This document shows, one piece after another, positions 14,991-45,309 of a DNA stretch of 52,349 nt. A program made the translations under genes and the position numbers. The notes below the pieces were generated by a model. The model had not been told where the DNA came from and did no database searches. It saw only the letters and a list, made by a program, of their open reading frames with translations. This stretch comes from Gemmatimonadales bacterium (GTDB taxonomy: Bacteria > Gemmatimonadota > Gemmatimonadetes > Gemmatimonadales > JACORV01), in assembly GCA_030697825.1 (NCBI GenBank), contig JAUYOW010000067.1, positions 1 through 52,349 of the forward strand, given 5' to 3'. Each line of letters begins with the position of its first letter. Positions within the stretch are counted from its first letter, which is position 1.

Positions 14991-15128
14991 CTTGGGGAGC
15001 GGTACCCGGGGGAGCGGTACCCATCCGTGCGGACGGCGGTCGCGGTGCGCTTCCAGCGCCACCCAGCGGCTCCCAAGGTACCGCTCCCCAAGGTACCGCT
15101 CCCTCTTCACCCAAAGGTACCGCTCCCC
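14991..15128 (+). repeat. Inverted GGGGAGCGGTACC word repeats between actA and actB
   Basis: The word CTTGGGGAGCGGTACC at 14991-15006, with a second copy of its core at 15010-15021, faces three inverse copies at 15077-15092, 15092-15103 and 15116-15128. The 14991 and 15077 copies are perfect 16-base inverted repeats with a 70-base loop. In mRNA the forward and reverse copies could pair in several alternative registers. The array fills most of the 183-base actA-actB spacer. Confidence 0.9.
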
Positions 15129-15171
15129 GCTCCCCGCTCCCTCTCCGTTCACACTCCGACGCGCGGCCGCG

Positions 15172-18159: not shown

Positions 18160-18162
18160 GCC

Positions 18163-19527: not shown

Positions 19528-20051
19528 TGGCCACGCTTCCGGTGTCTGTCACGCGCCCCGGCGTCGTGGGCGTCTTCGGCACCCTCGACGGATGCCTGCT
19601 CGCCTTGCGCGAGCTCAAGGCCCACGGCTACGCGGGCCTCACCGTGTACTCGCCGGTGCCGAACCACGAGCTCGACGACGTGCTCGCGAAGAAGGAGAGC
19701 CCGGTCCGCGTGTTCACGCTGGTGGGCGGGCTCACCGGTTGCGCGCTCGGGTTCGCCTACGCGATATCGACGTCGTTGGACTGGGAGCTGGTCACCGGCG
19801 GCAAGCCGATCGTGTCCCTCCCGCCGTTCGTGATCATCGGCTTCGAGTGCACCATCCTGTTCGGCGCGCTGGTCACCGTCGCCGGCATGTTCATCAACGC
19901 GCAGCTGCCCAAGCTGCGCATGGCGGCGGGATACGATCCGCGCTTCAGCAACGACAAGTTCGGCATCGTGGCCTTCGGCGGGCCGGCGCAGGTCGCTACC
20001 GCCGAGGAGATCATGCGCGCCGCGGGCGCCGAAGAGGTGAACGATGTCTGA
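19527..20051 (+). CDS. actD: Alternative complex III subunit ActD (DUF3341)
   Basis: Small membrane subunit of 174 residues with two central hydrophobic hairpins (FTLVGGLTGCALGFAYA and FVIIGFECTILFGALV), the DUF3341 arrangement. The N-terminal soluble part begins GVVGVFGTLDGCLLALRELK and has a ferredoxin-like alpha/beta pattern; KFGIVAFGG is in the C-terminal part. The ATG shares its A with the actC TGA. It overlaps actE by eight bases. Confidence 0.9.
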   Translation: MATLPVSVTRPGVVGVFGTLDGCLLALRELKAHGYAGLTVYSPVPNHELDDVLAKKESPVRVFTLVGGLTGCALGFAYAISTSLDWELVTGGKPIVSLPPFVIIGFECTILFGALVTVAGMFINAQLPKLRMAAGYDPRFSNDKFGIVAFGGPAQVATAEEIMRAAGAEEVNDV

Positions 20052-20625
20052 GCCGGCGCACCGCCGCATAGCCGCACCGACGAACCGGCCGGCCCGACGC
20101 GCGCTCGCGGCCGCGGTGCTTGCCGTCGCCGCTGTAGGTTGCACTACGCTCGACAACGCGGTGGGCAAGATTCCGTGGTTCACCACCATGCGTGACCAGG
20201 CGGTGACGAGGCCGTTCGAGGCGCTCCCCGGCGAGGCGGCGCCGCGCGGGGTACCGCCCGGCTCCGTGCCGGTGACCGGGCACGAGGACTCGCTCGACCT
20301 GTTGACCGACCTGCATGAGGTCGCCAACCCCGCCGCGCGGACCGAGGCGTCGCTGACGCGCGGCGGCCGTATCTACGACACCTACTGCACCGTTTGCCAC
20401 GGTGCCCAGGGCGGCGGCGACGGCCCGGTGGCGGGGAAGATGGGCTACGTCCCGCCGCTCGTCACCGACATGACGAAGCAGCGGACCGACGGCTACATCT
20501 ACGCGGTCATCCGCCAGGGCCGAGGTATCATGCCGCGGTACGGGGACAAGATCCGCGGTGCCGACCGCTGGCACGTCGTGAACTACGTCCGGCAGCTACA
20601 GGGGGCGGCAAACAGTGGGCCGTAG
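20044..20625 (+). CDS. actE: Alternative complex III monohaem cytochrome c lipoprotein ActE
   Basis: Monohaem cytochrome c of 193 residues. The signal peptide ends in AAVGC, a lipobox, consistent with the triacylated cytochrome subunits seen in characterised complexes. The haem site is CTVCHGAQGGGDGPVA, with a likely axial Met in GIMPRYGDKI. YVRQLQGAANSGP closes the protein. The start lies inside actD (8-base overlap). Its role is to pass electrons from ActA/ActB toward an oxidase. Confidence 0.92.
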   Translation: MSEPAHRRIAAPTNRPARRALAAAVLAVAAVGCTTLDNAVGKIPWFTTMRDQAVTRPFEALPGEAAPRGVPPGSVPVTGHEDSLDLLTDLHEVANPAARTEASLTRGGRIYDTYCTVCHGAQGGGDGPVAGKMGYVPPLVTDMTKQRTDGYIYAVIRQGRGIMPRYGDKIRGADRWHVVNYVRQLQGAANSGP

Positions 20626-20648
20626 AGTTGCAGAGTTGCAGAGTTGCA
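20625..20648 (+). repeat. Three perfect 8-base tandem units (GAGTTGCA) after actE
   Basis: GAGTTGCA occurs three times head to tail at 20625-20632, 20633-20640 and 20641-20648, starting at the actE stop codon and filling much of the actE-actF gap. It is one of several short word repeats in spacers of this window. Confidence 0.9.
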
Positions 20649-20682
20649 GCGGTGGACAGGTGCCGGTGGGCAGGAGCGGAGC

Positions 20683-21969
20683 GTGACCGACCACTCGCGG
20701 CGCGACGCGGTCCTGCGCAAGCTGGATCGGCCCCTGCCTGGTTGGGTGAAGCCGCTGCTACTGGCGTCCACGGCCGTCGGCGCGCTCACGTTCATCCTGC
20801 TGGCGCTCGGCGCCGACTCGGCGAGGGCTTGGCGCGCCTACCACATCAACTGGCTCTACTGGACCGGGCTCGCGCAGGCCGGCCTCCTGTTCAGCGCCGT
20901 GGTCAAGGTGGCCAAGGGGCGGTGGAGCTACCCCATCCGCCGCATCGCCGAGGCTTCGGCGGCGTTCCTGCCGGTCTCGTTCGCGCTGTTCCTGGTGCTC
21001 TGGATAGGCCGGGCCCAGATCTTCCCGTGGATCGCCGCGCCGATCACCGAGCCGCACGTGAAGGCCTTCTGGCTCCGCGACGGCTTCATGTTCGGCCGCG
21101 ACATCGCGGCCCTGCTGGTGCTCTACGGGCTCGACTTCTGGTTCCTCTACCACTCGCTGAGGCCCGACGCGGCGCTGCTCCAGGCGGGCGCTCCCGAAAG
21201 AGTCAAGCAGCTCTACGCGTGGCTGGCGAAGGGCTTCGACCAGCCCGGCCGCGGAGCCGACTTCTCCGAGGAGCGGCAGAACTACATCGCCCCAGGGCTC
21301 ATCTTCGCGTACGCGGTCGTGATGAGCCTGCTCGCGTTCGACCTGATCATGTCGCTGGCGCCGCACTGGATCTCGAACCTCCTCGGCGGCTTCTTCTTCA
21401 TGGGAGCCTGGCTGACAGGGCTGATGTCGCTCGGGCTGCTCACGATGTTCTGGCGTCGGCACCTCCAGCTCGAAGACCTGATTACCACCACAACGCTCCA
21501 CGACCTCGGCAAGCTGTGCTTCGGATTCACGGTCTTCTGGGCGTACCTCTTCTTCTCGCAGTTCCTGGTGATCTGGTATGGCAACATGCCGGAGGAGACG
21601 AGCTTCCTGTTCCTCCGCATGGCGTCGCCCACCTGGCGCAACATCTCGACGCTGATGGTCGTGATGGTCTTCCTGATCCCGTTCTGGGGCCTGATCGGCG
21701 CGAAACCGAAGCAGACGCCGGCGGTCTTCGCCACCTTCGCCACCATCTCGCTGTGCGGCGTCTGGATCGACCGCTACGTCCTGACGGTGCCGTCCATCGT
21801 GCCGAGCGCTCCGAAGCTGCCGCTGGGCTGGCAGGAGCTGCTGGTCACGGTCGGGTTCTTCGGATTGTGGGGTCTGGCGTACGCGTGGTTCGCGGACCGG
21901 TTCCCGATCGTGAGTCCTACGTATCTGGAGCGGGGGGAGCGGCGGAAGCATGCGCATGCGTCGTTCTGA
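20683..21969 (+). CDS. actF: Alternative complex III membrane subunit ActF (NrfD-like)
   Basis: Second large polytopic subunit, 428 residues and about ten helices, distantly related to ActC. Blocks such as HINWLYWTGLAQAGLLFSA, RRIAEASAAFLPVSF, FAYAVVMSLLAFDLIMSL, LLTMFWRRHLQL and TVFWAYLFFSQFLVIWYGN are characteristic of ActF. The GTG at 20683, with GGAG 8-11 bases upstream, was preferred to an upstream ATG that would add repeat-derived sequence. It is the last act gene; no actG or cytochrome oxidase genes follow, since the next gene is on the other strand. Confidence 0.92.
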   Translation: MTDHSRRDAVLRKLDRPLPGWVKPLLLASTAVGALTFILLALGADSARAWRAYHINWLYWTGLAQAGLLFSAVVKVAKGRWSYPIRRIAEASAAFLPVSFALFLVLWIGRAQIFPWIAAPITEPHVKAFWLRDGFMFGRDIAALLVLYGLDFWFLYHSLRPDAALLQAGAPERVKQLYAWLAKGFDQPGRGADFSEERQNYIAPGLIFAYAVVMSLLAFDLIMSLAPHWISNLLGGFFFMGAWLTGLMSLGLLTMFWRRHLQLEDLITTTTLHDLGKLCFGFTVFWAYLFFSQFLVIWYGNMPEETSFLFLRMASPTWRNISTLMVVMVFLIPFWGLIGAKPKQTPAVFATFATISLCGVWIDRYVLTVPSIVPSAPKLPLGWQELLVTVGFFGLWGLAYAWFADRFPIVSPTYLERGERRKHAHASF

Positions 21970-33132: not shown

Positions 33133-35004
33133 TCAGTAGTTCACCGTCACCGCCCCCACATCCACCGTCTTCCTGGCGGGATCGAGCCGGAACACGCCGG
33201 GATCCCCACGGACCTGGAGGTTCGTCAGGTCGGCGACGGCGGTGCCCTCGGGTGAGAGCAGCGCGAGCATGTAGTAGCCGTCGCGCAGGCCGGTGAAAGC
33301 GAATCGCCCGTCGTTCCCGACGTCGGCGGCAGTCACCATGTTCGCGAGCACCGAGCCCTCGGTGCGCGGCGCGAGCGTGGAGGGATCGAACCCCGTGCTC
33401 GGATCGTCGGCGACGATGAGCCCCACCCGCCACCCGCTGCGCACCGAGACGATGCGGCCGCTGACCGTGCCGTCGGTGTAGGCCGGCCGAGCGCGGAGCG
33501 TTGAGAGGTCGGACGGCTGGATCACCCGCTGCCGCCAGGCCGCTTCGGACGCGGTGTCGCCGGCGAGCCGTGCGTAGTTGGCGAATCGCGTCGCGGCCTC
33601 GCTTCCGTGCTGGAAACGCGTGGTGTCCGCCAGCGCCGCGAGGATGCGGCTCAGGGTCGCCGGCTTGGGGCTGCCGAGGCCGGACATCGCGAATTGGTAG
33701 GTGATCGGGCCGATACGCTCGGGACGGTCGAACAGGAAGACGCCCGCGCGGGCCGCCTCGGGGTCCCAGCGCAGCGCCAGGAGCGCGACGCGGCAGCTCG
33801 CGACGCGGATGGACGTTCCGGTCACCTCGCCGCGATGCGCGTCCAGCCACGCGGTCAGTTTCTGCACGTTGGCCAGGGTGGCCGCCGGCAGCACGCGGTC
33901 GTCGCCCGCGCTATGGGCGCAGTCGTCCGCGGTGGTCGTCGGGGAGGACTGGGTGCGCGTCACCAACCGCCGCGACTCTGGAAGGTCCTGACCAGCCAGT
34001 ATGATCGGGGTGCGGGTGGGCGCCGTGCGGTCGAGCCCCAGCACCTCGACGACGCTCACCGCCACGTCCTGGGCCCGGCGCGTGGACGTGTTGTAGGTGG
34101 TGAGCGCGACGACTGCGAGGAACGCGCCCAGGATCCCACCTACCATGGTGCTGCCGCGGCGGTTGCCCGGACCGAGCGACTGCGGCGCCGTCACGACGAG
34201 GAGCGCGCCGGCCACCGCCATCGCGACGCCCGCCGTCAGCACGTCCGACGAGACGGACCATCCAGCGGTCGCACCGGGGCTGCCGCCCGCCGCGTCGATC
34301 GTGAAGAGAGTGTAGAAGGTGTCGGCCGAGCTGGAGAGAAAGCTCCGGGGCTCGCTGGAGAGGAGCGTGGCGAAGGCGACCGCGGCCCAGACGGCGATGC
34401 CGCCCAGGGCGCCGTGCGAGATGCGCAGCGGGATGCGTCGCCCGAAATCCTTGGGCCCGACGAACGACCAGATTCCGCCGAAGAGCACTGCCGAGATCGC
34501 GCCCATTCCCACCAGCTGGCGGCGCGCCTTGTCGGGGTCCTGGGCCAGGTCGGTGGAGAAGAGGCCGTCGATGTCGAGCGTGCCCCGGTAGAGCAGGAAC
34601 GCGAGGGCGAACGCGATCGCAACGGTCGTGATTCGCCGTGCGGGCGAGACGTACTGCGGCCCCTGGCGCGAGAGGATGTCGGGGTGCATCACCACCACGA
34701 GGGCGATCGCCATGATCACCGTGGCCGTCACCGCCAGTGTCGTCTCGAGCCCCGCCGCCGCGAGGCGTCCCGGCCACGCCGCCGGACCGCTCCAGAACGC
34801 CGGAGCGATGCCCCATCCACGCGGGAACGCGAAGCCGAAGACCACTTCCGTGGAAGCGGAGAGGTCTGGCGGCACCGCGGCCGCGGCGCGCGCGAGCGCG
34901 TAGAGGACGCCGAACACGAGGAAGAGCGCCGCGACGATGGCGGCACGCTTGGCCTCTCGGCCCGGGGTAGAGGGGTTGAGGACGGGAAGATCGGCAAGGG
35001 TCAT
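33133..35004 (-). CDS. Polytopic membrane protein of unknown family, paralog of the gene upstream
   Basis: Protein of 623 residues that I do not recognise. The first ~350 residues hold about seven to nine hydrophobic segments (IVAALFLVFGVLYALARA; VTATVIMAIALVVVMHPDIL). The rest is soluble, with two cysteines (ADDCAHS and ASCRVALL), and ends in a transthyretin/carboxypeptidase-regulatory-like strand pattern (FTGLRDGYYMLALLSPEG). It is a tandem paralog of the next gene: both begin LPxLNPSTPxREAxRAA, share APQSLGP, both cysteines and a C-terminal GDPG block. The ATG at 35004 has GGAG at good spacing, and the longer open frame upstream is not supported. The gap to its paralog is 31 bases. Confidence 0.8.
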   Translation of the reverse strand: MTLADLPVLNPSTPGREAKRAAIVAALFLVFGVLYALARAAAAVPPDLSASTEVVFGFAFPRGWGIAPAFWSGPAAWPGRLAAAGLETTLAVTATVIMAIALVVVMHPDILSRQGPQYVSPARRITTVAIAFALAFLLYRGTLDIDGLFSTDLAQDPDKARRQLVGMGAISAVLFGGIWSFVGPKDFGRRIPLRISHGALGGIAVWAAVAFATLLSSEPRSFLSSSADTFYTLFTIDAAGGSPGATAGWSVSSDVLTAGVAMAVAGALLVVTAPQSLGPGNRRGSTMVGGILGAFLAVVALTTYNTSTRRAQDVAVSVVEVLGLDRTAPTRTPIILAGQDLPESRRLVTRTQSSPTTTADDCAHSAGDDRVLPAATLANVQKLTAWLDAHRGEVTGTSIRVASCRVALLALRWDPEAARAGVFLFDRPERIGPITYQFAMSGLGSPKPATLSRILAALADTTRFQHGSEAATRFANYARLAGDTASEAAWRQRVIQPSDLSTLRARPAYTDGTVSGRIVSVRSGWRVGLIVADDPSTGFDPSTLAPRTEGSVLANMVTAADVGNDGRFAFTGLRDGYYMLALLSPEGTAVADLTNLQVRGDPGVFRLDPARKTVDVGAVTVNY

Positions 35005-35035
35005 GGCGACTCCGGTGGAAAGCCCTGGTGACGGC

Positions 35036-36829
35036 TCAGTAGCTGATGCGTATGGTGCCGAGATCGCGGCGGCTCGCCGCGGCGACAATAAACTGGCCAG
35101 GATCGCCCGCCACCGAAAGGCCCCGAAGGCGTTCGGGCGCTGTCCCTTCCGGCGCGAGCAGTGCGAGCTGGAACCGCCCCGCGGGCACGTCGCGGAACGT
35201 GAAGTCCCCCAAGGCGCTCGGCGTGGCCGTGCGAACGATGTTCTGGAGGGCGAGGCCGTCGGTTCGCGGGGCGAGCAGCCAGGGGTCGGTGCCCGGCTCT
35301 GCCCCGGTGACGAGTGCGACGCGCCAGGCCGCGGGGTCGGGCGCGGCGAGGCGGCCCCGCACCTCGGGGGCGGTCACGGCAGGTGGTCCGGCGGCGAGAC
35401 GCTCGAGCTTCTCGCGCCAGTCCGCGGTCGCGGCGTAGCGGGCCGTGTCGCGGAGTGCGCGGACCCAGGCCGCGGCGGCCGGATCTCCTGAGAACGTCTC
35501 GATGCCCTTCAGCCCCAGGCGGAAAGCGAAGGCGCCGACCAGGGCGGGCGCCGCGTCGCCGAAGATCTGCGTTCGCGCGTCTTCGGTCCGAAACAGGCGA
35601 GCCAGGATGGCGACGCGGCAGCCCACGGCCCGCGCGGCCAGTGCGGATACCTCGTCATGGTGCGCGCCGAGCCAGCGGTCGAGCGCGGCGAGGTTGGCCT
35701 CCGAGGCGGCCGGCAGCGGTCGGTCGGCGTACGCGGGTGATGGGGCGCAGTCGGCGGCGAGGGAGCGCGGGAGCAGCGCCTGTCTCGCCGGCACTCGGCG
35801 GCGCGCGTCTTCCGCCCCCATCAGCAGCACGATGGGCCGCGCGGGGCCGCTCACCGAGAGGCCGAGGGACTCCACCACGTCGGGCGCGGCCTCGGAGACC
35901 CGCTGGCGCGAGCCGGCCGAGGTCCGCCACCCAGCGAGCAGGACCCGCCCCAGAACGGCAGCGGCGGCGGCGCCGGCGCCGCCGCGGCTCTTCGGGCCCA
36001 GGCTCTGCGGCGCGCCAACGACCGCGAGGGCTCCGGCCATCCCCATCGCCAGCCCATAGGTCAGGATGGTGGAGAGGAGGATCCAGCCGTACGTCCCGCC
36101 GGGCGCACCTCGGCTCGCGTCCAGCGTGGCGAGGACGTTGCCCACGGCCGCGAGCTCGCCCAGCGCGCGCAGCGGCTCGGCGAGCAGCACACCCAGGCAG
36201 CACGCGCCCCACATCGAGAGTCCGGCGACCGCGCCGTGCCCGAACCGCAGGTAGGCGCGGATGTTGAGCACCCCCGGGCCCGCGATCAGCCACAGGGACG
36301 CGCAGAAGACGACGAACACGGCGCCGATCCGGAGCGCGGCACCGATGTCCACGTTCGTATTGAACGTGATGTCGGGGGTGAGAGCGGCGCCGAGACGGGA
36401 CATCGCCTCCGGCGCGCCGACGCCGATGATCACCGCCGAGGCGTAGGCCACCACCCGGCGCAGCGGCGGCAGGAAGTACTGGCGGGGCCTCTGGAGGACG
36501 CCGGGGTGGATCACGGCGAGCGCCGCCGCGGATATCAGGACCACGCCGAGAATCCGGATCGCCGCGTAAGCGCCCACCGACGGTACCAGCCGGCTCGGAA
36601 TGGCCGCGAGGCCGTGCCAGTCCGAAGGGTCCATCCCCCAGGCCCTGGGGCCGATCCCCGGGACCCCGTAGGTGAAAACCGTGAGGGGGCCGTCGCGCAA
36701 CGGCAACGCGGCCTCGGCGAGGGCCCAACCCACCATGCCGAGGAACGCGAGGCTGGCGACCAGCGCGGCGCGCATCGCTTCGCGTCGCGGGGTCGAGGGG
36801 TTCAGGATAGGAAGGCCGACGATCGTCAC
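35036..36829 (-). CDS. Polytopic membrane protein of unknown family, paralog of the gene downstream
   Basis: Protein of 597 residues, also unrecognised. Same architecture as its neighbour: N-terminal VGLPILNPSTPRREAMRAALV, about eight hydrophobic segments including IRILGVVLISAAALAVIHPG, then ALAVVGAPQSLGPKSRGG. The soluble region carries the two conserved cysteines (ADCAPS, VGCRVAIL), and a beta-rich C-terminus reads FRDVPAGRFQLALLAPEG and GDPGQF. The GTG at 36829 was chosen because it aligns with the paralog's start; a TTG at 36865 is the alternative. It is divergent from the potassium channel gene and first in a minus-strand series leading toward the VIT/ECF genes. Confidence 0.8.
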   Translation of the reverse strand: MTIVGLPILNPSTPRREAMRAALVASLAFLGMVGWALAEAALPLRDGPLTVFTYGVPGIGPRAWGMDPSDWHGLAAIPSRLVPSVGAYAAIRILGVVLISAAALAVIHPGVLQRPRQYFLPPLRRVVAYASAVIIGVGAPEAMSRLGAALTPDITFNTNVDIGAALRIGAVFVVFCASLWLIAGPGVLNIRAYLRFGHGAVAGLSMWGACCLGVLLAEPLRALGELAAVGNVLATLDASRGAPGGTYGWILLSTILTYGLAMGMAGALAVVGAPQSLGPKSRGGAGAAAAAVLGRVLLAGWRTSAGSRQRVSEAAPDVVESLGLSVSGPARPIVLLMGAEDARRRVPARQALLPRSLAADCAPSPAYADRPLPAASEANLAALDRWLGAHHDEVSALAARAVGCRVAILARLFRTEDARTQIFGDAAPALVGAFAFRLGLKGIETFSGDPAAAAWVRALRDTARYAATADWREKLERLAAGPPAVTAPEVRGRLAAPDPAAWRVALVTGAEPGTDPWLLAPRTDGLALQNIVRTATPSALGDFTFRDVPAGRFQLALLAPEGTAPERLRGLSVAGDPGQFIVAAASRRDLGTIRISY

Positions 36830-36846
36830 GCGCCGGAGAATGGGGT

Positions 36847-36874
36847 TTGCCGGGCCGGACGTCAACCGTATAGC
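36847..36874 (+). promoter_or_regulatory. Candidate promoter of the potassium channel gene
   Basis: TTGCCG (36847-36852), a 16-base spacer and TATAGC (36869-36874); TAGCTT two bases further with an 18-base spacer is an equal option. It lies in the 71-base gap between divergent genes, about 27 bases before the ATG. Confidence 0.4.
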
Positions 36875-36900: not shown

Positions 36901-38004
36901 ATGCCAGCACTAACCAAAGCCGACGAACAGCTCGCCGAAGTCCGCCGCCGCCTCCTCAGCGCCGCGGCCGGCACCCTCATCGTGTTCGTGGTGGGGGTGG
37001 TCGGGTACATGATCATCGGGCGCGGCGAGCACCGGTTCCTCGACAGCCTGTACATGACCGTGATCACGCTGACCACGGTGGGCTACGGCGAGATCATCCC
37101 GATGGACAACAACCCCGCGGGCCGGATCTTCACGATGATTCTGCTGGTCTTCGGGATGGGGATCCTGGTCTACTTCGCTTCGACGGTCACGGCATTCTTC
37201 GTCGAAGGTCAGCTCGAGCAGGTGTTCTGGAGGAAGCGCATGCGCAAGGCGATCAGCGAACTCAAGGAGCACGTCATCGTGTGCGGTGACCGCGTGGTGG
37301 CCGGCCACGTGATAGACGAGATGCGGCGGGTGCGCCGCTCCGTCGTCTCGGTGCATCCGGCCGGGACCCCGCATCCGCTCATCACTACCGAGGGTGAGCT
37401 GCTCCACGTCGAAGGAGACCCCTCGGATGAAGAGGTGCTGCGCGAGGCAGGCATCATGCGCGCGGCGGGCTTGGTGGCGGCGATGGAGTCGGACCGCGAG
37501 AACGTGCTGTGCGCGCTCACCGCCCGGCAGACCAACCCGATCATGCGGATCGTCTCCATGCTGGTCGAGCCGCGCAACGAGTCCAAGCTGCGGCGCGCGG
37601 GCGCCGACAGCGTGGTCTCGCCGTTCTCCATCGGCGGGCTGCGCATGGCGTCGGAGATGATCCGGCCGGCCGTCGTGACCTTCCTCGACTCCATGCTGCG
37701 CGACCGCGACCGCAACCTGCGTATCGAGGAGATCCTGGTCGGACGGGGCTCGCCGGCCATCGGCAAGTCGCTGCGCGAGCTGCACGTCAACGCGATCCCC
37801 GGACTGTTGCTGCTCGCCCTCGTCGAAGGCAAGGATGGGCGCTACCACTTCAAGCCGAAGGACGATCTCGTGGTGGCCGAAGCCGCGACGCTGATCGTGA
37901 TGGGAGACCCCGCCGCCGTGGGCCAGCTGCGCGAGAAGTACGGAGGACAGACCTACGCGGAAATGGCCGCTACCACGGAGCGGCCGGCCGCAGGGCGTTC
38001 CTGA
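36901..38004 (+). CDS. Two-helix potassium channel with RCK (TrkA-N/TrkA-C) domains
   Basis: Inner-membrane K+ channel subunit of 367 residues. TM1 at ~24-40, a pore loop with the selectivity filter TLTTVGYGE (TVGYGE at 59-64), then TM2 (FTMILLVFGMGILVYFAS). The RCK/TrkA-N domain follows from ~120 (HVIVCGDRVVAGHVIDEM), but the usual GxGxxG dinucleotide loop reads CGDRVVAG. A TrkA-C domain occupies the last ~90 residues (LVGRGSPAIGKSLRELHV; GRYHFKPKDDLVV). This is the Kch/MthK arrangement. The altered glycine loop is common in ligand-gated bacterial RCKs. Its 3' end overlaps the convergent PAP2 gene by 35 bases. Confidence 0.92.
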   Translation: MPALTKADEQLAEVRRRLLSAAAGTLIVFVVGVVGYMIIGRGEHRFLDSLYMTVITLTTVGYGEIIPMDNNPAGRIFTMILLVFGMGILVYFASTVTAFFVEGQLEQVFWRKRMRKAISELKEHVIVCGDRVVAGHVIDEMRRVRRSVVSVHPAGTPHPLITTEGELLHVEGDPSDEEVLREAGIMRAAGLVAAMESDRENVLCALTARQTNPIMRIVSMLVEPRNESKLRRAGADSVVSPFSIGGLRMASEMIRPAVVTFLDSMLRDRDRNLRIEEILVGRGSPAIGKSLRELHVNAIPGLLLLALVEGKDGRYHFKPKDDLVVAEAATLIVMGDPAAVGQLREKYGGQTYAEMAATTERPAAGRS

Positions 38005-38791
38005 CCCGGTCACCCACCGCGAAGAGCGCCACCGCGAGGATCGCTCCCGCGATCGCGTCGACCCCATAGTGGATCTGGCCGTACACCGTTCCGAGCGCGA
38101 GCCCGAACGACACCGGGGCGAGCACCAGGGCCAGCCGCCGCGCGTCCCGCCAGGATGCCATCACCGCCATCCACGACGCAGCCACGTGCGATGACGGGAA
38201 CGCCGTCCCCCACGCCGAACCAACCTCGAGCACCCGGTGAACGAATCGCGCCGGCAGTACGGTGGTGATGGGTCCGGTGGCGTCACCGAAGAACTCGCGC
38301 GGCCCCGTCACCGGCAGGAACGCGAAGATGAGGTAGCAGGTGTAGAAGGCGAGCGTGATGAGGAACATCCCGCGCTCGTAGGCTTCCCGGGGAGTGCGGA
38401 AGTAGAGCCAGAGCCCGGTCCCCGTGACGATCCAGTAGTACGACCCGTAGCAGAAGTGCATGATCCACGACAACACCAGGCTCGGCACGCGCTGGTTCCA
38501 GATCACGCTCACCTGGCCGCCGAACACCGCCTCCTCCCAGCGCAGCACGAGGGCATCGTAGACGTGGGCCGTGTCGAGCGCGATCACCCCGAGCTGAGTG
38601 TAGTACACGATGGACAGCAGAACGCCGTAGCCACCGCCGATGAAGGCAACCAGGCCCGTCACCGGGGCGCGCGCCAGCAGGGCGACCAGCGTCAGCGTGA
38701 GCGCGTTGCCGAGCAGGAGCCACCGCCAGGCGCCGACGACCGGAGCATGCCATACGACCACCGCGGTGTTCACGAGCAGGAAGCCGATCAT
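37970..38791 (-). CDS. Aur1/PAP2-type membrane enzyme, candidate sphingolipid head-group transferase
   Basis: Membrane protein of about 273 residues with some six helices, PAP2 superfamily (inositolphosphotransferase Aur1/Ipt-like branch). Catalytic-type motifs are TAFPSSHVAASW (C2, His) and GQIHYGVDAIAG (C3, His and Asp); the first motif K-x6-RP of classical phosphatases is not evident. FCYGSYYWIVTGTGLWLYF resembles the Aur1-like branch. The ATG at 38791 was chosen, 35 bases after the reductase stop; its SD is weak. As last gene of the ceramide cluster it may attach a phospho-head-group to ceramide or dephosphorylate an intermediate; this is inferred. Its 3' end overlaps the convergent channel gene. 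Confidence 0.75.
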   Translation of the reverse strand: MIGFLLVNTAVVVWHAPVVGAWRWLLLGNALTLTLVALLARAPVTGLVAFIGGGYGVLLSIVYYTQLGVIALDTAHVYDALVLRWEEAVFGGQVSVIWNQRVPSLVLSWIMHFCYGSYYWIVTGTGLWLYFRTPREAYERGMFLITLAFYTCYLIFAFLPVTGPREFFGDATGPITTVLPARFVHRVLEVGSAWGTAFPSSHVAASWMAVMASWRDARRLALVLAPVSFGLALGTVYGQIHYGVDAIAGAILAVALFAVGDRVRNALRPAAPW

Positions 38792-38826
38792 CAGGCGGTC
38801 GGTCGCGGTGACGCCCCGGCGCCCGG

Positions 38827-39801
38827 TCAGGCGAGGAGTCTCTGCGTCCGGTACCACGCCGCAGTCTCGCGCGTGCCGGCGTCGATGTCGTGCGCGGCGC
38901 GCCACCCCAGCTCGCGCTCGGCCTTGTCCACGGCGATCAGCCACGCGGGTGCTCGGAACTCATCGAGGCGGTCGACGCTGACGACCGACCGCTGTCCGGC
39001 CGCGCCGGCGGCGCGCTCCATCGCCCAGACGATCGCCGCCGCCACCGGAATGGGCACCGGAACGGTGTGTGGCGTGCGGCCGAGGGCCCGACCGATGGCG
39101 AGACCGAGGCAGCGGTAGCTGACCCCCTGCGCGTGGGCCGCGTGATAGACCTGGCCTGTGGCCCTGTCCACCGTGCCGGCGCGCACGATCGCCTCCGCGA
39201 GATCCGGCGCGTAGACGATAGAGATCTCCTGGTCACCGCGGCCGAACACCGGGTTGAGGCCTCGGCGCACCAGGCGGAACAGCCTGAGAAACTCCCGGTC
39301 GCGCGGGCCGTAGACCACCGGCGGCCGGACGATGACCCACGGCTCGTCGCTCCCGAGGACCACGGCCTCCCCTGCGAGCTTGCTGCGTCCGTACGCGCTG
39401 AGGGGATGACACGGGGCGTTCTCCCGGAGGTACTGACCGGGCTGCGAGGGTCCGAGGGCGGCCTGCGTCGACACGTACACGAAGCGGCAGCCGGGAGCCG
39501 TACGCCGGACCGCCTGCAGGAGCCGCCGTGTCCCTTCCTCGTTCACCGCGAAGAACTCGGCCTCGGAGAAGGCCGCGGTCAGCCCCGCCACGTGATAGAC
39601 GACCTCGACGCCTGCGACGGCGCGCTCGAGGCTGGCGGTGTCGTGGAGGGAGCCGGGGATCACCTGCGCCCCGCGCGCGGCGAGCGCGGCGGCGCGATCG
39701 GGCTTGCGGGCGAGGCAGAGGACCGTGTCGCCGCGCGCCAGGAGCGCTTCGGCCACGTGGCTGCCGATGAAGCCGGTGCCGCCGGTGAGGAACGCTCTCA
39801 C
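38827..39801 (-). CDS. cerR: NAD-dependent epimerase/dehydratase-family reductase, candidate ceramide reductase
   Basis: Extended short-chain dehydrogenase of 324 residues. AFLTGGTGFIGSHVAEALLAR is the Rossmann start, VYHVAGLTAAF and FVYVSTQAALG hold the NAD-site strands and Ser, and SAYGRSKLAGEA contains the catalytic YxxxK. In Caulobacter an epimerase-like enzyme of this kind (CerR) reduces the 3-keto group of ceramide. The GTG at 39801 overlaps the stop of the GNAT gene. By sequence alone it could also be a dihydroflavonol-reductase or HpnA-like protein; the assignment rests on its place between the ceramide synthase and Aur1-like genes. Confidence 0.75.
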   Translation of the reverse strand: MRAFLTGGTGFIGSHVAEALLARGDTVLCLARKPDRAAALAARGAQVIPGSLHDTASLERAVAGVEVVYHVAGLTAAFSEAEFFAVNEEGTRRLLQAVRRTAPGCRFVYVSTQAALGPSQPGQYLRENAPCHPLSAYGRSKLAGEAVVLGSDEPWVIVRPPVVYGPRDREFLRLFRLVRRGLNPVFGRGDQEISIVYAPDLAEAIVRAGTVDRATGQVYHAAHAQGVSYRCLGLAIGRALGRTPHTVPVPIPVAAAIVWAMERAAGAAGQRSVVSVDRLDEFRAPAWLIAVDKAERELGWRAAHDIDAGTRETAAWYRTQRLLA

Positions 39802-40925
39802 ACGGCCCGGTCGTACATCCGGTAGGTCTTGTAGGGCCGAAAGCCAAGCCGCTCCATTCCGTTGCGGATGGCGTGGTTGGTTTCGAGGAGCCAGCTCGCC
39901 TCGCACCAGAAGAGGCCGTGCGCGTTCCCGTGCCGCCAAGTCCACTCGTACAGCAGCGCGTCGGTGCCGGTCCGGCGGTACTTCGGCAGCACGCCCAGGG
40001 TGAGCGTGCGGGCCCGGCTGATCTTCCGCTTGTGCCAGAGGATCTTGAGGAGTCCGAACGGGAACAGCCGCCCCGAAGGGTTGTGCTTCAGCGCCTGGTT
40101 GAAGTCGGGTAGCGTGATGGCGAACCCGATCAGCTCGCCCTTCATCTCCGCGAAGACGACGAGATCGGGTACGACCACCGGCTTGAGCTGCTTCGCCAGG
40201 TGGTCCATCTCCGCGTCCGTGAAGGGGATGAAGCCCCAGTTCTTCTCCCACGCGAAGTTGTACAGCTTCTTCACCAGCGCCACCTCTTCCCAGTACCTCC
40301 GCATGTCGATCGGACGCAGCGTGATCCGGTACCGCTGCGCGAGCTTCCTGGCGCCCTCGACGAGCCGCGCGGGAGGCGCGTCGCCGGAGCCCTGGTACGC
40401 GAGCAGGTCCATCGCCTTCGTGAACCCGGCGCGCTCGACCAGCTCCGGGTAGTAGGGCGGGTTGTGCGGCATCAGGATCGTGGGCGGCGTGTCGAAGCCC
40501 TGCACCAGCAGGCCGCACTCGTCGTTGGTGGAGAAGCTGGCCGGCCCGCGCATCACCGTCAGGCCGCGCGCGCGGAGCCAACCGCCTGCCGCCGCGAAGA
40601 GCGCGTCCGCCACCGCCTGGTCGTTCACGCTCTCGAAGAAGCCGAAGAACCCCACCTGCTTCTCCTCCTCGTGGACCGCGCCGTGCGCGTCGTTCCTGAT
40701 CGCGGCGATGCGGCCTGCGATCGCACCGTCCCGTTCGGCCAGGAAGTAGTCCGCTTCCGCGTGCTGGAAGAAGGGGTTCTTGGACCGTGAGAGCAGCGTC
40801 CTCACGTCCCTGCGCAGCGGGGCGACCCATGTGGGATCGCCCCGGTGCAGCCGATACGGGAAGTCGATGAAGCGGTCGAGGTCGGCCGGCGATACCACCC
40901 GCCGGACGGCGACGGTCTCCGTCAG
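39798..40925 (-). CDS. bcerS: GNAT-fold acyltransferase, candidate bacterial ceramide synthase
   Basis: Protein of about 375 residues. VSPADLDRFIDFPYRLHRGD and WVAPLRRDVRTLLSRSKNPF are the opening of the GNAT-like group that includes bacterial ceramide synthase, which N-acylates 3-ketosphinganine. Further blocks: GRIAAIRNDAHG, GFFGFFESVNDQ, MRGPASFSTNDECGLLVQGF, LTLGVLPKYRRTGTDALLYE (acyl-CoA site) and ETNHAIRNGMERLGFRPYKT. No ATG or TTG precedes the first strand. A GTG at 40898 would remove it, so the likely start is CTG at 40925 overlapping the spt stop as CTGA. The gene overlaps the reductase start at its other end. Caulobacter uses the same enzyme set without this compact order. Confidence 0.75.
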   Translation of the reverse strand: MTETVAVRRVVSPADLDRFIDFPYRLHRGDPTWVAPLRRDVRTLLSRSKNPFFQHAEADYFLAERDGAIAGRIAAIRNDAHGAVHEEEKQVGFFGFFESVNDQAVADALFAAAGGWLRARGLTVMRGPASFSTNDECGLLVQGFDTPPTILMPHNPPYYPELVERAGFTKAMDLLAYQGSGDAPPARLVEGARKLAQRYRITLRPIDMRRYWEEVALVKKLYNFAWEKNWGFIPFTDAEMDHLAKQLKPVVVPDLVVFAEMKGELIGFAITLPDFNQALKHNPSGRLFPFGLLKILWHKRKISRARTLTLGVLPKYRRTGTDALLYEWTWRHGNAHGLFWCEASWLLETNHAIRNGMERLGFRPYKTYRMYDRAV

Positions 40926-42133
40926 GCTATCACTCCCAACTCGCGGCCGATGGCCGCGAACGCGTCGAGCGCGAAGTCCACCTGGTCCGCGGTGTGCGTA
41001 GCCATGACGCTGGTACGAAGGCGGCACTGTGACGGCGGCACCGCCGGTGGCACCACGGGGTTCGTGAACACGCCGGCGTCGAACAGCTTCCGCCAGAATA
41101 CGAGCGTCCCTTCGAGCGGGCCGATGAGCACCGGCACGATCGGCGTCTGGGTGTGCCCGATGTCGAACTTGAGGTTGCGCAGCCCCTCCTGCAGGCGACG
41201 CGTGTTCTCCCACAGCGCGGCGCGTCGCTCGGGCTCGCTCCTCAGGATATCGAGCGCCGCGAGCACGCCCGCGGTGTTCGACGCCGGGAGCGCCGCGGTG
41301 AAGATGAGCGGCCGCGCATGGTGCTTGAGGTAGTGGATGATGTAGTCGGCGCCCGCCACGAAGCCGCCGATGGACGCGAGCGACTTCGAGAAGGTGCCCG
41401 CGATGAGGTCCACTTCGTCCGTCATGCCGAAGTGGTCGGCGGTGCCGGCGCCCGTGGGCCCGAGGACGCCGACCGAGTGCGCGTCGTCCACCGCGAGCGC
41501 CACGCCGTAGCGCTGCGCGATGGGCGCGAGGTGCGGCAGGTCGGCGATGTCGCCTTCCATGGAGTAGACGCCGTCCACGATGATCATCGCGCCCCGCGGC
41601 CGGTCGTCGCGGGCCAGCTTGCGTTCCAGCGCGGCGAGGTCGCCGTGGTTGAATCGCACCACGTCGCCCTGGGAGAGCTTGGCGCCGTCCAGGATGGAAG
41701 CATGGTCGAGCTTGTCGAGGTAGACGTTCTCGCCGCGGCCGACCAGGCCGGAGACGACGCCGAGGTTGGCCTGATAGCCGGTGGAGAAGACGAGGCAGGC
41801 TTCCTTGCCGAGGAACTCGGCGAGCCGGGCCTCCAGGATCTCGTGCAGGTCAAGGTTGCCGTTGAGGAAGCGGCTCCCGGTGCACCCGGAGCCGTACTTG
41901 TTGAGCGCTTCCCGCGCCGCTTCCAGCACTTTGGGGTGATGGGTGAGGCCGAGGTAGTTGTTCGACCCCATCATGACCTTTGTCTTGCCGTCGATCTTGA
42001 CGACAGTATCTTCCGACTCGGTGATCGGGGTGAAGTACGGGTAGAGCCCCATCGCCTGGACTTCGCGCGCCCGGGTGAAACTCTTGCACTTCTCGAACAG
42101 CGCGACTTCCCGCGCGACTTGTATCGTGGCCAC
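40922..42133 (-). CDS. spt: Serine palmitoyltransferase-like alpha-oxoamine synthase
   Basis: PLP enzyme of 403 residues that condenses serine with an acyl thioester to 3-ketosphinganine, the first sphingolipid step. The N-terminus LFEKCKSFTRAREVQAMGLY and PYFTPITESEDTVVKIDGK resemble bacterial serine palmitoyltransferases more than BioF or Kbl. Catalytic features: GSNNYLGLTHHPKV, GSRFLNGNLDLHEILE, LDHASILDG (His), VDDAHSVGVLG (Asp/His) and IAGTFSKSLASIGG with the PLP lysine. The GTG start at 42133 is preceded by a strong GGGGAGGA Shine-Dalgarno. It heads a four-gene minus-strand cluster. No dedicated acyl carrier protein or acyl-CoA ligase is present in the window. Confidence 0.85.
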   Translation of the reverse strand: MATIQVAREVALFEKCKSFTRAREVQAMGLYPYFTPITESEDTVVKIDGKTKVMMGSNNYLGLTHHPKVLEAAREALNKYGSGCTGSRFLNGNLDLHEILEARLAEFLGKEACLVFSTGYQANLGVVSGLVGRGENVYLDKLDHASILDGAKLSQGDVVRFNHGDLAALERKLARDDRPRGAMIIVDGVYSMEGDIADLPHLAPIAQRYGVALAVDDAHSVGVLGPTGAGTADHFGMTDEVDLIAGTFSKSLASIGGFVAGADYIIHYLKHHARPLIFTAALPASNTAGVLAALDILRSEPERRAALWENTRRLQEGLRNLKFDIGHTQTPIVPVLIGPLEGTLVFWRKLFDAGVFTNPVVPPAVPPSQCRLRTSVMATHTADQVDFALDAFAAIGRELGVIA

Positions 42134-42172
42134 TGGGTCCTCCCCTATAAACGAACTGGGCTGATTGTACCG

Positions 42173-42928
42173 ATGATCATGCGGTTAATCAAGTTACGGC
42201 GCTCGCTGGCGGGCGGTTTCGTCGGCGCTCTGGTTGCCATTCAACCCGCTCGGGCACAGCAGGTTCCGTCGCCGCTGCGGTACGAGGTCCGGGCCTGGCC
42301 GGATGCGGCCATCCTGACCGGCGCCGCGGCCGCGACGCTGGTCCCCCAACTCCTCAAGGGAAGTCTGCCCCATGCCACCTGCGCGCCCTGCGATCCGTCG
42401 GGGCTGTGGCGGATAGATCGGGGCGCGGTCGGGCCGCTCCGCGGCGCGCCGGCCCGCGTCAGCGACGTACTGGTCCTCGGGACCACGCTGGGCGGCGCGG
42501 TGCTGCTCGCTACGACCCGGAGCGGGGAGGGAGGAGACGCGCGGCGTGAGGACTTCGCCGTGTTCACTGAGGCCGTGGGTCTCACTTCGGCGGCGACCGA
42601 CTGGATGAAGGTGCTCTTCCACCGGCCGAGGCCGGTCCGCTATAGCGCCGACGCGCTGGACTACCCGTCGGCCAACTACGGGCTGTCGTTCCCGTCCGGG
42701 CACACTAGCCAGGCGTTCGCCGCTGCGGCCGCGTACGCGTCCATCCTTCACCGGCGCGGCGTCGCGGGCCGGCACCGCACCGAGATCGCCGTTCTCTTCA
42801 CGACGGCCGCGGCTACGGGGGTGATGCGAGTCGCATCGCGCAAGCACTTCCCGACCGACGTCATCGCGGGCGCGCTGCTCGGCACCGCCATCGGCTGGAC
42901 CATCCCCGCCTTGCACGCGATCCGATAG
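42173..42928 (+). CDS. PAP2-superfamily phosphatase, secreted/membrane
   Basis: Protein of 251 residues with a signal or anchor helix (LAGGFVGALVAIQPARAQ). All three classical PAP2 motifs are present: KVLFHRPRP (K-x6-RP), FPSGHTSQAFA (PSGH) and ASRKHFPTDVIAG (SR-x5-H-x3-D). This is a lipid phosphatase or related acid phosphatase acting at the envelope. It is divergent from spt with only 39 bases between the starts, so the pair may share control; TATAAA lies in that gap. ATG at 42173 or 42179. Unlike the Aur1-like PAP2 gene of the cluster, it keeps the full phosphatase signature. It could process sphingolipid phosphates, which is an inference. Confidence 0.88.
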   Translation: MIMRLIKLRRSLAGGFVGALVAIQPARAQQVPSPLRYEVRAWPDAAILTGAAAATLVPQLLKGSLPHATCAPCDPSGLWRIDRGAVGPLRGAPARVSDVLVLGTTLGGAVLLATTRSGEGGDARREDFAVFTEAVGLTSAATDWMKVLFHRPRPVRYSADALDYPSANYGLSFPSGHTSQAFAAAAAYASILHRRGVAGRHRTEIAVLFTTAAATGVMRVASRKHFPTDVIAGALLGTAIGWTIPALHAIR

Positions 42929-43083: not shown

Positions 43084-45309
43084 GTGGGTCGTCGGCCGGT
43101 CCTGATGCTCCTTCTTGCTGCGCTGGCGATGCCGGCGCAAGGCGCACTCTCCCAGGGTGTCGACGGACGCCCACGCGAGCCGTTCGGGTTCGATTTCAAG
43201 CCCGACGCCGTGTGGCGCGTCCGCGCGCGGCGGGTTCGCCTCGCTCGGGCGCGCGCGCTGGCCCTTGGCGACTTTCGCTCCCTCAACTCAGCCCTCGCGT
43301 TCCGCGCACCGGTGGCGCTGCGCGCCCAGGCAGCCCCGTCACCCACGGCGGTCTCCGGCGTACTGAAGGTTCCGTACTTCCTGGTCAGCTTCCGCAACAC
43401 CGATCCGACCGCGCTGCTCCCGGTCGCGGCATACGACACGGCCCTCACGTTCGCGACGGCCCCGCCGGGGCGGCCCTACACCGTGCGCACCTATTACGAG
43501 GAGATGTCGAACGGGTTGCTGAGCCTCCAGGGCCAGGTGCTCGCGCGGGTCGCGCTCGACAGCAATGACACCTGGTACGAAGGGAACTGCAACGCGCTGT
43601 GCTCCTCCGGCGCCAGCCCCGGGCGCATGGCGCAGCTCATGCGCGAGGCGATCCTGGGCGTGGACTCGACGGTCAACTTCGGTCTGTTCGACAACGATGG
43701 GCCGGACGGGATCCCCAACTCGGACGACGACGATGGCGAGGTGGACATCGCCGGGTTCATACAGCCGGAGCTGGGCGGGGAGTGCGTGGCCAAGGCTCCG
43801 TCATCCGCGAACAACATTTGGTCACACCGCTATTACTACAGCGCCTGGACCGGACAGCCTTACACGACCAACGATCCGCGCACGGGGGGCGGGCCGATCA
43901 GGATCGACAACTACACGATCCAGTCGGGCGTCGGAGGCAGCGACGCCTGCACCGGCGCCCAGATCATGGGCATCGGGACCATCGCCCACGAGATGGGACA
44001 CGGCCTCGGCCTCGACGACCTTTACGACACGAATCCCGACGACGGCGACGACTCGGAGGGGGTGGGCCATTGGGGGCTAATGGGCTCGGGCGGCTTCGCG
44101 ACGCCGTTGAGCCCCGCCAGCATGGAGGCCTTCTCGCGCGCCGAGCTGGGTTGGATCGCGGTCCGCGCGCTCACGCTTCCCGGCTCGTATCAACTTGGTC
44201 CCACCGCCGTCGGGGATACCGCGTTCCTGATCCGCCCGACCGTCGCGAACCTGCGCGGGGAGTACTTCCTGCTCGAGAACCGGCAGGCGGCGCTCTCGGA
44301 CACGGCGTTGATCCGGTCGAAGGGCCCGGGACTGCTGATCTGGCACGTGGACTCGACCAAGTACGCGCAGAGCTTTTTCTTGAACGAGGTGAATTCGGGC
44401 CCGATCCACGCCGTGTGGCTGAGGCAGGCCGACGGGTTGAACCACCTGCGCAGCAGCACCCCGGACGTCCGGAACCGCGGCGACGCCGGTGACCCGTTCC
44501 CGGGCACCACGAACAACACCGTCTTCGGTGCGGCTACGAACCCGTCATCGAACCTCAACACCGGCCTGCCGTCGGGCATCCAGATCGATTCCATCCGCCA
44601 GGTGACCCCCGGAGGCGCAGTCGCCTTTCACCTGCTGGCGGGGAGCGAGGTCCGGGCGAGCGACACGGCGGCGGTTGTGCGGGTGAACGGGGTCGCGTAC
44701 AGTGTGTTCCGCCGGCTCGTGACTTCGGGCGCGGAAACGCTGCTGGTGGACATCGACTCCGTGCAGACGACCGGCGGGGGCGTGACGCGCTTCGAGTTCC
44801 GCGGCTGGAGCGACAGCGGGGCGCGCTCGCACACCGTCATTGTCACGCCGGCGAACCCGCTCTCACTGGTGGCGCAACTCGCCGTGTTCCACCGGGTCAC
44901 GGTGTCGAAGAGCGGCAACGGCACGATCACCATCTCGCCGAGTCTCGGCGCGGGCGGGAGCGCTATGCTCCCCGCGACCGACACCTTGCGCGTCACCGCG
45001 AGCCCCTCACCGCAGAACATCTTCGTGGCGTGGGATGGGGACACGACCAGCCTCGATCCGTCCCTGGCGCTGCTGGTCAGGCGCCCGCTGACCCTGACGG
45101 CGTCGTTCACTCCACTGCTGCTGGATAGCGTAGTGGCTCAGCTGCTGAGAGGCTCGGGGCTCACCGATGCGCAGCAGAGCCTGATGGACCTCCAGGCCAA
45201 CAACAACGGCGTCTTCGACCTCGGCGACTTCGTGGCGTGGCTCGACCGGTCGGGCACGACCGTGAGCGCGCAGGTGATGGCCCGCGTGCTGGGGAGGCTG
45301 CGGCGATGA
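43084..45309 (+). CDS. Secreted M6-family metalloprotease with C-terminal dockerin-like region
   Basis: Protein of 741 residues. Signal peptide VLMLLLAALAMPAQGALS. The peptidase M6 (immune inhibitor A-like) domain occupies ~95-400 with VPYFLVSFRNTDPTALLP, YYEEMSNGLLSLQGQV and the zinc site IAHEMGHGLGLDDLYD, then GHWGLMGSGG. A beta-rich region and an InlB-type repeat domain (VTVSKSGNGTITISPS) follow. The last ~65 residues (GLTDAQQSLMDLQANNNGVF, then DLGDFVAWLDRSG) resemble one dockerin module with a D/N-rich calcium-loop-like segment. The GTG at 43084 has GGGAGA upstream. It overlaps the lipoprotein gene by ATGA. The role is probably extracellular protein breakdown. Confidence 0.9.
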   Translation: MGRRPVLMLLLAALAMPAQGALSQGVDGRPREPFGFDFKPDAVWRVRARRVRLARARALALGDFRSLNSALAFRAPVALRAQAAPSPTAVSGVLKVPYFLVSFRNTDPTALLPVAAYDTALTFATAPPGRPYTVRTYYEEMSNGLLSLQGQVLARVALDSNDTWYEGNCNALCSSGASPGRMAQLMREAILGVDSTVNFGLFDNDGPDGIPNSDDDDGEVDIAGFIQPELGGECVAKAPSSANNIWSHRYYYSAWTGQPYTTNDPRTGGGPIRIDNYTIQSGVGGSDACTGAQIMGIGTIAHEMGHGLGLDDLYDTNPDDGDDSEGVGHWGLMGSGGFATPLSPASMEAFSRAELGWIAVRALTLPGSYQLGPTAVGDTAFLIRPTVANLRGEYFLLENRQAALSDTALIRSKGPGLLIWHVDSTKYAQSFFLNEVNSGPIHAVWLRQADGLNHLRSSTPDVRNRGDAGDPFPGTTNNTVFGAATNPSSNLNTGLPSGIQIDSIRQVTPGGAVAFHLLAGSEVRASDTAAVVRVNGVAYSVFRRLVTSGAETLLVDIDSVQTTGGGVTRFEFRGWSDSGARSHTVIVTPANPLSLVAQLAVFHRVTVSKSGNGTITISPSLGAGGSAMLPATDTLRVTASPSPQNIFVAWDGDTTSLDPSLALLVRRPLTLTASFTPLLLDSVVAQLLRGSGLTDAQQSLMDLQANNNGVFDLGDFVAWLDRSGTTVSAQVMARVLGRLRR

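Follow-up and report, generated by a model that had tools for sequence, protein, structure and literature searches.

The window analysed here, a 52,349-nucleotide contig (JAUYOW010000067.1, assembly GCA_030697825.1) of a Gemmatimonadales bacterium, contains what is probably an operon for ceramide biosynthesis whose last gene is dedicated to the pathway. Open reading frame calls and Pfam searches place five genes between positions 37970 and 42928. Four of them, spt, cerS, cerR and a gene for a PAP2_3 membrane protein, lie on the minus strand. Neighboring genes abut or overlap, and stop/start overlaps run all along the operon. The fifth, a PAP2 gene, lies on the plus strand and is divergent from spt. 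A preliminary description of this DNA had named the same five genes, and all are present. The motifs it listed, a pyridoxal phosphate (PLP) lysine, GNAT blocks, YxxxK, PSSH, and HYGVD, are real, with the PSSH of the PAP2_3 protein taking the form FPSSH. The core pathway is already known. Judged by the papers that were searched, the operon with a CerR-linked PAP2_3 gene outside the Aur1 family is new. The host is a soil or groundwater bacterium represented by a metagenome-assembled genome (MAG) of 3.37 Mb in 333 contigs, and its suspected placement in the Gemmatimonadota was borne out. The closest operon outside the host set is in a groundwater 'Gemmatimonadetes bacterium' MAG and is 73% identical on PAP2_3.

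The fourth gene is part of the ceramide pathway. Gene order was counted in 80 PAP2_3 loci from public genomes, and co-occurrence was scored in a separate, independent sample of 200 genomes from the phylum. In 58 of the 80 loci, the four genes share a strand and follow each other as spt>cerS>cerR>PAP2_3, and conservation of this order across the phylum excludes a chance arrangement. CerS is encoded in 105 of the 200 genomes. PAP2_3 is present in 82 of these 105 compared to 1 of the 95 genomes that lack CerS (Fisher p = 2e-33, uncorrected for phylogeny and shared ancestry). Counting from spt gave a similar picture: of 74 genomes, 58 have PAP2_3 no farther than 8 kb from spt, and another 9 encode it at a different site. 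The same PAP2_3 clade is found beside a CerR-like short-chain dehydrogenase/reductase (SDR) in Prevotella oral taxon 299, Bacteroides finegoldii, and a Vicinamibacteria MAG. PAP2_3 carriers among the Vicinamibacteria and Rokubacteria, and one in the Poribacteria, also have CerS. The co-occurrence together with the retained gene order assigns the fourth gene to the pathway. The preliminary description had called sphingolipids in this phylum noteworthy. That emphasis has to be softened: CerS occurs in more than half of the sampled genomes, and PMC11334938 counts 40 potential sphingolipid-producing phyla with Spt-like proteins, although the main text of that paper does not name the Gemmatimonadota.

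Spt has the fold of an alpha-oxoamine synthase (Pfam Aminotran_1_2, 189 bits), and its PLP lysine is K250 within TFSKS. Its NCBIfam scores were highest for SerpalmtaseCFB (NF047600, 520 bits), followed by BioF (395 bits), Kbl (369 bits), and HemA (248 bits), each below the cut-off of its own model. NF047600 covers the Bacteroidota-type serine palmitoyltransferase, and its cut-off was reached in none of the 200 sampled genomes. The best PDB match is a serine palmitoyltransferase (419 bits). In the tree, Spt groups with the cluster-linked Spt proteins of Rubrobacter, Streptomyces, Aureispira, and Sphingomonas and stands apart from Kbl, BioF, and HemA. The host has its own paralogue on another contig (C282), and this protein groups with Kbl. 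The NCBIfam scores, PDB match, and tree rule out the identification of Spt as Kbl, BioF, or HemA and agree with the serine palmitoyltransferase assignment made earlier.

CerS scores just above the Pfam threshold for Acetyltransf_1 (21.7 bits, cut-off 20.7). Reference ceramide genes were taken from Sphingomonas, Roseomonas, and other clusters in place of the Caulobacter sequences (including CC_1154). CerS is 37 to 45% identical over 95 to 100% of its length to the GNAT genes located beside spt in Sphingomonas, Rubrobacter, Streptomyces, and others. The individual values over 99% of the length are 37.5% for Sphingomonas, 40.6% for Rubrobacter, and 41% for Streptomyces. A PDB search with the GNAT protein returned nothing useful. 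CerS takes its place in the tree among the ceramide synthases from spt clusters of other phyla, which upholds its description as a GNAT-type ceramide synthase against the Sphingomonas and related references rather than against Caulobacter. A second CerS-like GNAT gene in the host (contig C89, L039:3043-4170) encodes a protein 33% identical to the operon CerS. It clusters with the CerS of Prevotella rather than with that of the operon type, and the short contig carries no spt or cerR near it. The YghO protein of E. coli and Pseudomonas plasmids (L181:1-4122 and L182:1-5122) is also a CerS homologue, at about 36% identity. Its gene adjoins a fatty acyl-AMP ligase and an SDR gene, and in Pseudomonas veronii an Spt-like gene as well, forming a gammaproteobacterial ceramide-type cluster.

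CerR is an SDR (Pfam Epimerase, 127 bits) with a GGTGFIG nucleotide-binding motif and the YxxxK motif in the form YGRSK, and its gene is linked to spt and cerS. It is 36 to 38% identical to the SDR whose gene comes third in the spt-cerS clusters of Streptomyces and Rubrobacter, compared to 25% identity with E. coli RfaD. The earlier suggestion of a ceramide reductase is thus matched by an SDR homologous to cluster-linked CerR. Caulobacter CerR is reported to be periplasmic (PMC11087976). The window CerR begins directly at its Rossmann motif and has no obvious signal peptide.

The fourth protein belongs to a CerR-linked PAP2_3 clade of its own. It is the sole PAP2_3 protein above the cut-off in the host genome (Pfam, 61 bits), and FPSSH and HYxxD are present in all 65 homologues, the latter as HYGVD in the window protein. 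The preliminary description had called this protein Aur1-like and listed a PSSH motif. PSSH is not the Aur1 motif, and the label fails at the family level. NF052609 is the NCBIfam model of BT_1522, the Bacteroides phosphoinositol-dihydroceramide synthase. This model did not match the window protein at E values up to 10 or any protein in the host genome at 1e-5. Proteins of the BT_1522/Aur1 type carry APPW and PS[LV]H, whereas the CerR-linked clade carries PVxGP and FPSSH; the window protein lacks the first pair and has PVTGP and FPSSH instead. The tree separates the two types with support of 100/99, and the BT_1522 branch is long. In the PDB, the Prevotella BT_1522-type protein matches yeast AUR1 at 2e-19. 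We did not detect a match to AUR1 with either the window protein or the CerR-linked protein of B. finegoldii (WP_237923849), and the PDB search with the single window sequence gave nothing useful. A profile built from 20 homologues covered most of AUR1 in alignment, but the E value was no better than 0.09. The NF052609 and AUR1 searches, the motifs, and the tree split rule out membership in the Aur1/BT_1522 family. With the profile alignment, they identify the fourth protein as a distant PAP2_3 relative and not a member.

PAP2_3 proteins of other kinds were also encountered. Three other Gemmatimonadota genomes encode PAP2_3 proteins with the Aur1/BT_1522 signature (PPW and PS[LV]H; L172:1477-2415, L173:2-925, and L174:1450-2397). 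One of these genomes lacks CerS. From their motifs, these proteins are possible inositol-lipid transferases. The Poribacteria have a close-knit PAP2_3 family about 34% identical to the window protein, with no ceramide genes adjoining (L113, L123, L124, L129, L131, L133, L140, L141, L150, and L157).

A route for the operon can be proposed. We infer each of its reactions, along with the donor, the topology, and the sequence in which acylation and reduction occur. The Spt, CerS, and CerR steps are modeled on homology to the Caulobacter-type pathway. Spt would condense serine with a long-chain acyl thioester to give 3-ketosphinganine, CerS would N-acylate this product, and CerR would reduce the keto group to yield dihydroceramide. 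The PAP2_3 protein would then move a phospho-head group from a glycerophospholipid onto dihydroceramide at its C1 hydroxyl, which would supply the envelope with a phosphosphingolipid. The His-Asp catalytic motifs of PAP2_3 (FPSSH and HYxxD) probably face the periplasm, an orientation compatible with a crude hydropathy plot in which basic residues occupy the alternate loops. The preliminary description had foreseen addition of a phospho-head group by an Aur1-like enzyme. The genomic association makes the head-group role likely, and the Aur1-like enzyme is the part that did not hold.

The host genome was searched for routes to candidate donors. A phosphatidylserine decarboxylase gene adjoins a CDP-alcohol transferase gene, and the host therefore probably has phosphatidylethanolamine. 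One CDP-alcohol transferase gene resembles phosphatidylinositol phosphate (PIP) synthase (NCBIfam PIPSynth 150 bits, pgsA 26 bits) and overlaps the gene for myo-inositol-phosphate synthase, which indicates that phosphatidylinositol is probably present as well. Inositol-phosphate synthase was considered as a discriminator of the head group. It is nearly universal in the phylum sample (184 of 200 genomes) and thus uninformative. Phosphatidylethanolamine is the most likely donor, at somewhat short of an even chance. Phosphatidylinositol comes second and is doubtful, and phosphatidylglycerol or another donor ranks after both. The preference for phosphatidylethanolamine derives indirectly from Bacteroides, where the enzyme for the phosphoethanolamine step was still unidentified in 2022. 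Phosphoethanolamine dihydroceramide is reported from all Bacteroides species tested (PMC10191378). When an animal ethanolamine phosphorylceramide (EPC) synthase was used as a BLAST query, B. thetaiotaomicron yielded no enzyme for this lipid (PMC8791184), and deletion of BT_1522 leaves phosphoethanolamine dihydroceramide intact (PMC9246714). Our literature search for a bacterial EPC synthase returned nothing on point. The second ceramide-linked PAP2_3 protein, encoded beside CerR, is a natural candidate for the Bacteroides step.

Several observations weigh against a ceramide operon with its own head-group gene. Spt falls short of the curated NF047600 model (520 bits against a cut-off of 640), and the backbone that separates Spt from the other alpha-oxoamine synthases has moderate support (82 to 90 in the Shimodaira-Hasegawa-like approximate likelihood ratio test). 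PAP2_3 is missing from 23 CerS-positive Gemmatimonadota genomes, and it occurs without CerS in two of the three Poribacteria genomes searched (G200 and G201). The chemistry of PAP2_3 is read from genomic association, and a phosphatase or carrier-recycling role would give the same linkage. Among the searchable papers, the literature search found no lipid data for these organisms and no report of sphingolipids in Gemmatimonadota. The below-threshold model score of Spt would fit an operon that makes another N-acylated alpha-oxoamine lipid, such as a 1-deoxy sphingoid lipid or one built on a different amino acid, and PMC11334938 argues that alanine and other amino acids could serve as substrates of Spt-like enzymes. 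However, the closest solved relatives of Spt are serine palmitoyltransferases, and the co-conserved PAP2_3 would fit best with a C1 hydroxyl, which 1-deoxy lipids lack. A product other than ceramide is improbable.

The remaining alternatives concern the fourth gene. It may encode a lipid phosphatase that works beside the pathway on ceramide phosphate, sphingoid phosphate, or a leftover carrier and adds no head group. The catalytic motifs are those of the PAP2 superfamily, and the best PDB profile matches are the phosphatases PgpB and LpxE over the shared C-terminal motif. But the C1 motif KxxxxxxRP is absent from the window protein and from 63 of 65 homologues, as it is in the BT_1522 transferase type, which makes a phosphatase quite unlikely. 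The protein could also be a true inositol-phosphorylceramide (IPC) synthase that performs the Aur1/BT_1522 reaction on host phosphatidylinositol from outside their clade. The PIP synthase-like gene adjoining myo-inositol-phosphate synthase and the span of the family profile over AUR1 speak for this function, as does the one sampled CerS genome lacking inositol-phosphate synthase (G015), which also lacks PAP2_3. G015 is a single case, however, and inositol-phosphate synthase does not track PAP2_3. The missing NF052609 match and APPW motif, and the strong AUR1 match of the Prevotella BT_1522-type protein where the window protein has none, point away from IPC synthesis. Prevotella carries both types of protein, and inositol lipids therefore need not be the product of the CerR-linked type. 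IPC synthesis is unlikely, and a ceramide operon with a dedicated head-group gene is the reading we carry forward.

Comparison with known systems separates the conserved core from the variable head-group gene. The window has the same three core enzyme families (Spt, bCerS, and CerR) as the Caulobacter/Sphingomonas pathway. CerS homology was confirmed against the Sphingomonas plasmid cluster, and that of both CerS and CerR against clusters of other phyla. The window differs in its single tight spt-cerS-cerR operon, which lacks several genes of the alphaproteobacterial clusters, namely those for the acyl carrier protein, acyl-ACP synthetase, and LptF/LptG; the Sphingomonas and Roseomonas clusters have at least the acyl carrier protein gene. 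It differs further in an Spt nearer to the Sphingobacterium (Cytophaga-Flavobacterium-Bacteroides, CFB) type and in the proposed use of PAP2_3 for the head-group step. The Bacteroides BT_1522-BT_1526 inositol-sphingolipid cluster and fungal AUR1 likewise feature a ceramide-linked membrane enzyme of the PAP2 superfamily, and the host shares PIP synthase and inositol-phosphate synthase with the Bacteroides cluster. The window PAP2_3 gene, by contrast, is a neighbor of cerR instead of the inositol genes. In Prevotella oral taxon 299, the BT_1522-type gene adjoins PIP synthase, GtrA, and PgpA genes, and the CerR-linked PAP2_3 gene is separate. The CerR-PAP2_3 pairs of this Prevotella, B. finegoldii, and Vicinamibacteria share PVxGP, FPSSH, and HYxxD with the window, and the PAP2_3 gene directly follows the CerR-like SDR gene. 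In those genomes, unlike in the window, spt and cerS are located elsewhere. The window PAP2_3 is 22 to 27% identical to the Bacteroidales CerR-linked proteins, and the function of these pairs is not described in the searchable papers.

The Rubrobacter and Streptomyces clusters have the spt-cerS-cerR order of the window and differ in the fourth gene, which encodes an LTA-synthase-family (lipoteichoic acid synthase) protein in Rubrobacter and a condensation-domain protein in Streptomyces. These differences suggest that head-group genes may be interchangeable between spt-cerS-cerR clusters. In Rubrobacter radiotolerans, the arrangement is on a plasmid (L183:2704-8296), and its LTA-synthase-family gene may encode an enzyme that adds a phosphoglycerol head group in this Gram-positive bacterium.

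The features of the locus are listed in Table 1. The longest open reading frames in the raw listing begin too far upstream for cerS, cerR, and PAP2_3. A CTG at 40925 that overlaps the spt TGA is a possible start for cerS, with an in-frame GTG at 40898 as the alternative. CerR starts at a GTG at 39801 that overlaps the cerS TGA. The PAP2_3 gene may start at a CTG at 38830, overlapping the cerR TGA, or at an ATG at 38791. The sigma-70-like box just upstream of spt matches the consensus at 9 of 12 positions and is the only one between 37000 and 43200 (about 6.2 kb), compared to 0.3 expected in the shuffled sequence.

Table 1. Genes and candidate promoter of the ceramide locus, in window coordinates.
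Feature	Position	Strand	Basis
PAP2_3 membrane protein, 286 aa, putative ceramide phosphotransferase	37970..38830	-	PAP2_3, motifs, co-occurrence
cerR, NAD(P)-dependent epimerase-type SDR, putative (oxo)ceramide reductase, 324 aa	38827..39801	-	Epimerase, motifs
cerS, GNAT-fold bacterial ceramide synthase, 375 aa	39798..40925	-	Acetyltransf_1, spt-cluster homologues, tree
spt, serine palmitoyltransferase, 403 aa	40922..42133	-	Pfam Aminotran_1_2, NCBIfam, PDB match, tree
Candidate sigma-70-like operon promoter, TTGATT-17-TACAAT	42164..42192	-	Consensus match only
Divergent PAP2, 250 aa, full C1-C2-C3 phosphatase motifs	42176..42928	+	PAP2 74 bits, KVLFHRPRP, PSGH

The starts of spt and the divergent PAP2 gene are 42 bp apart. 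The divergent protein has a hydrophobic N terminus, and the motifs expected of a full-motif PAP2 enzyme are all in place: the C1 motif conforms to KxxxxxxRP, and the third motif is R-x5-H-x3-D. Its sequence marks it as a probable periplasmic phosphatase acting on lipids or other substrates. In 22 of 51 loci, a homologue of this gene is divergent from spt and no more than 700 bp away. Beyond it, a gene for an M6-type (immune inhibitor A) peptidase (43084-45309) is divergent to the operon, and 24 of 36 Gemmatimonadota loci retain such a gene upstream of spt. On the other side, a neighboring pair of minus-strand genes (651 and 609 aa) at 33133-36865 encodes similar multi-spanning membrane proteins, an apparent tandem duplication. 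Farther away, open reading frames judged by eye form an alternative complex III-like set (14992-21969) of a large molybdopterin/iron-sulfur protein, two NrfD-like membrane proteins, and a small membrane protein.

The four-gene ceramide operon is common in a phylum that is abundant in soil, and separating the window protein from Aur1 avoids a label that would mislead annotation. We tentatively suggest that the CerR-linked PAP2_3 clade may be the missing bacterial ceramide phosphoethanolamine synthase, shared by Gemmatimonadota, Bacteroidales, and Acidobacteriota, with an evolutionary history separate from both Aur1/BT_1522 and the animal ceramide phosphoethanolamine synthase. In three phyla this clade lies beside the ceramide reductase, and in the sampled Gemmatimonadota its presence follows that of CerS, which makes it a concrete, testable EPC synthase candidate.

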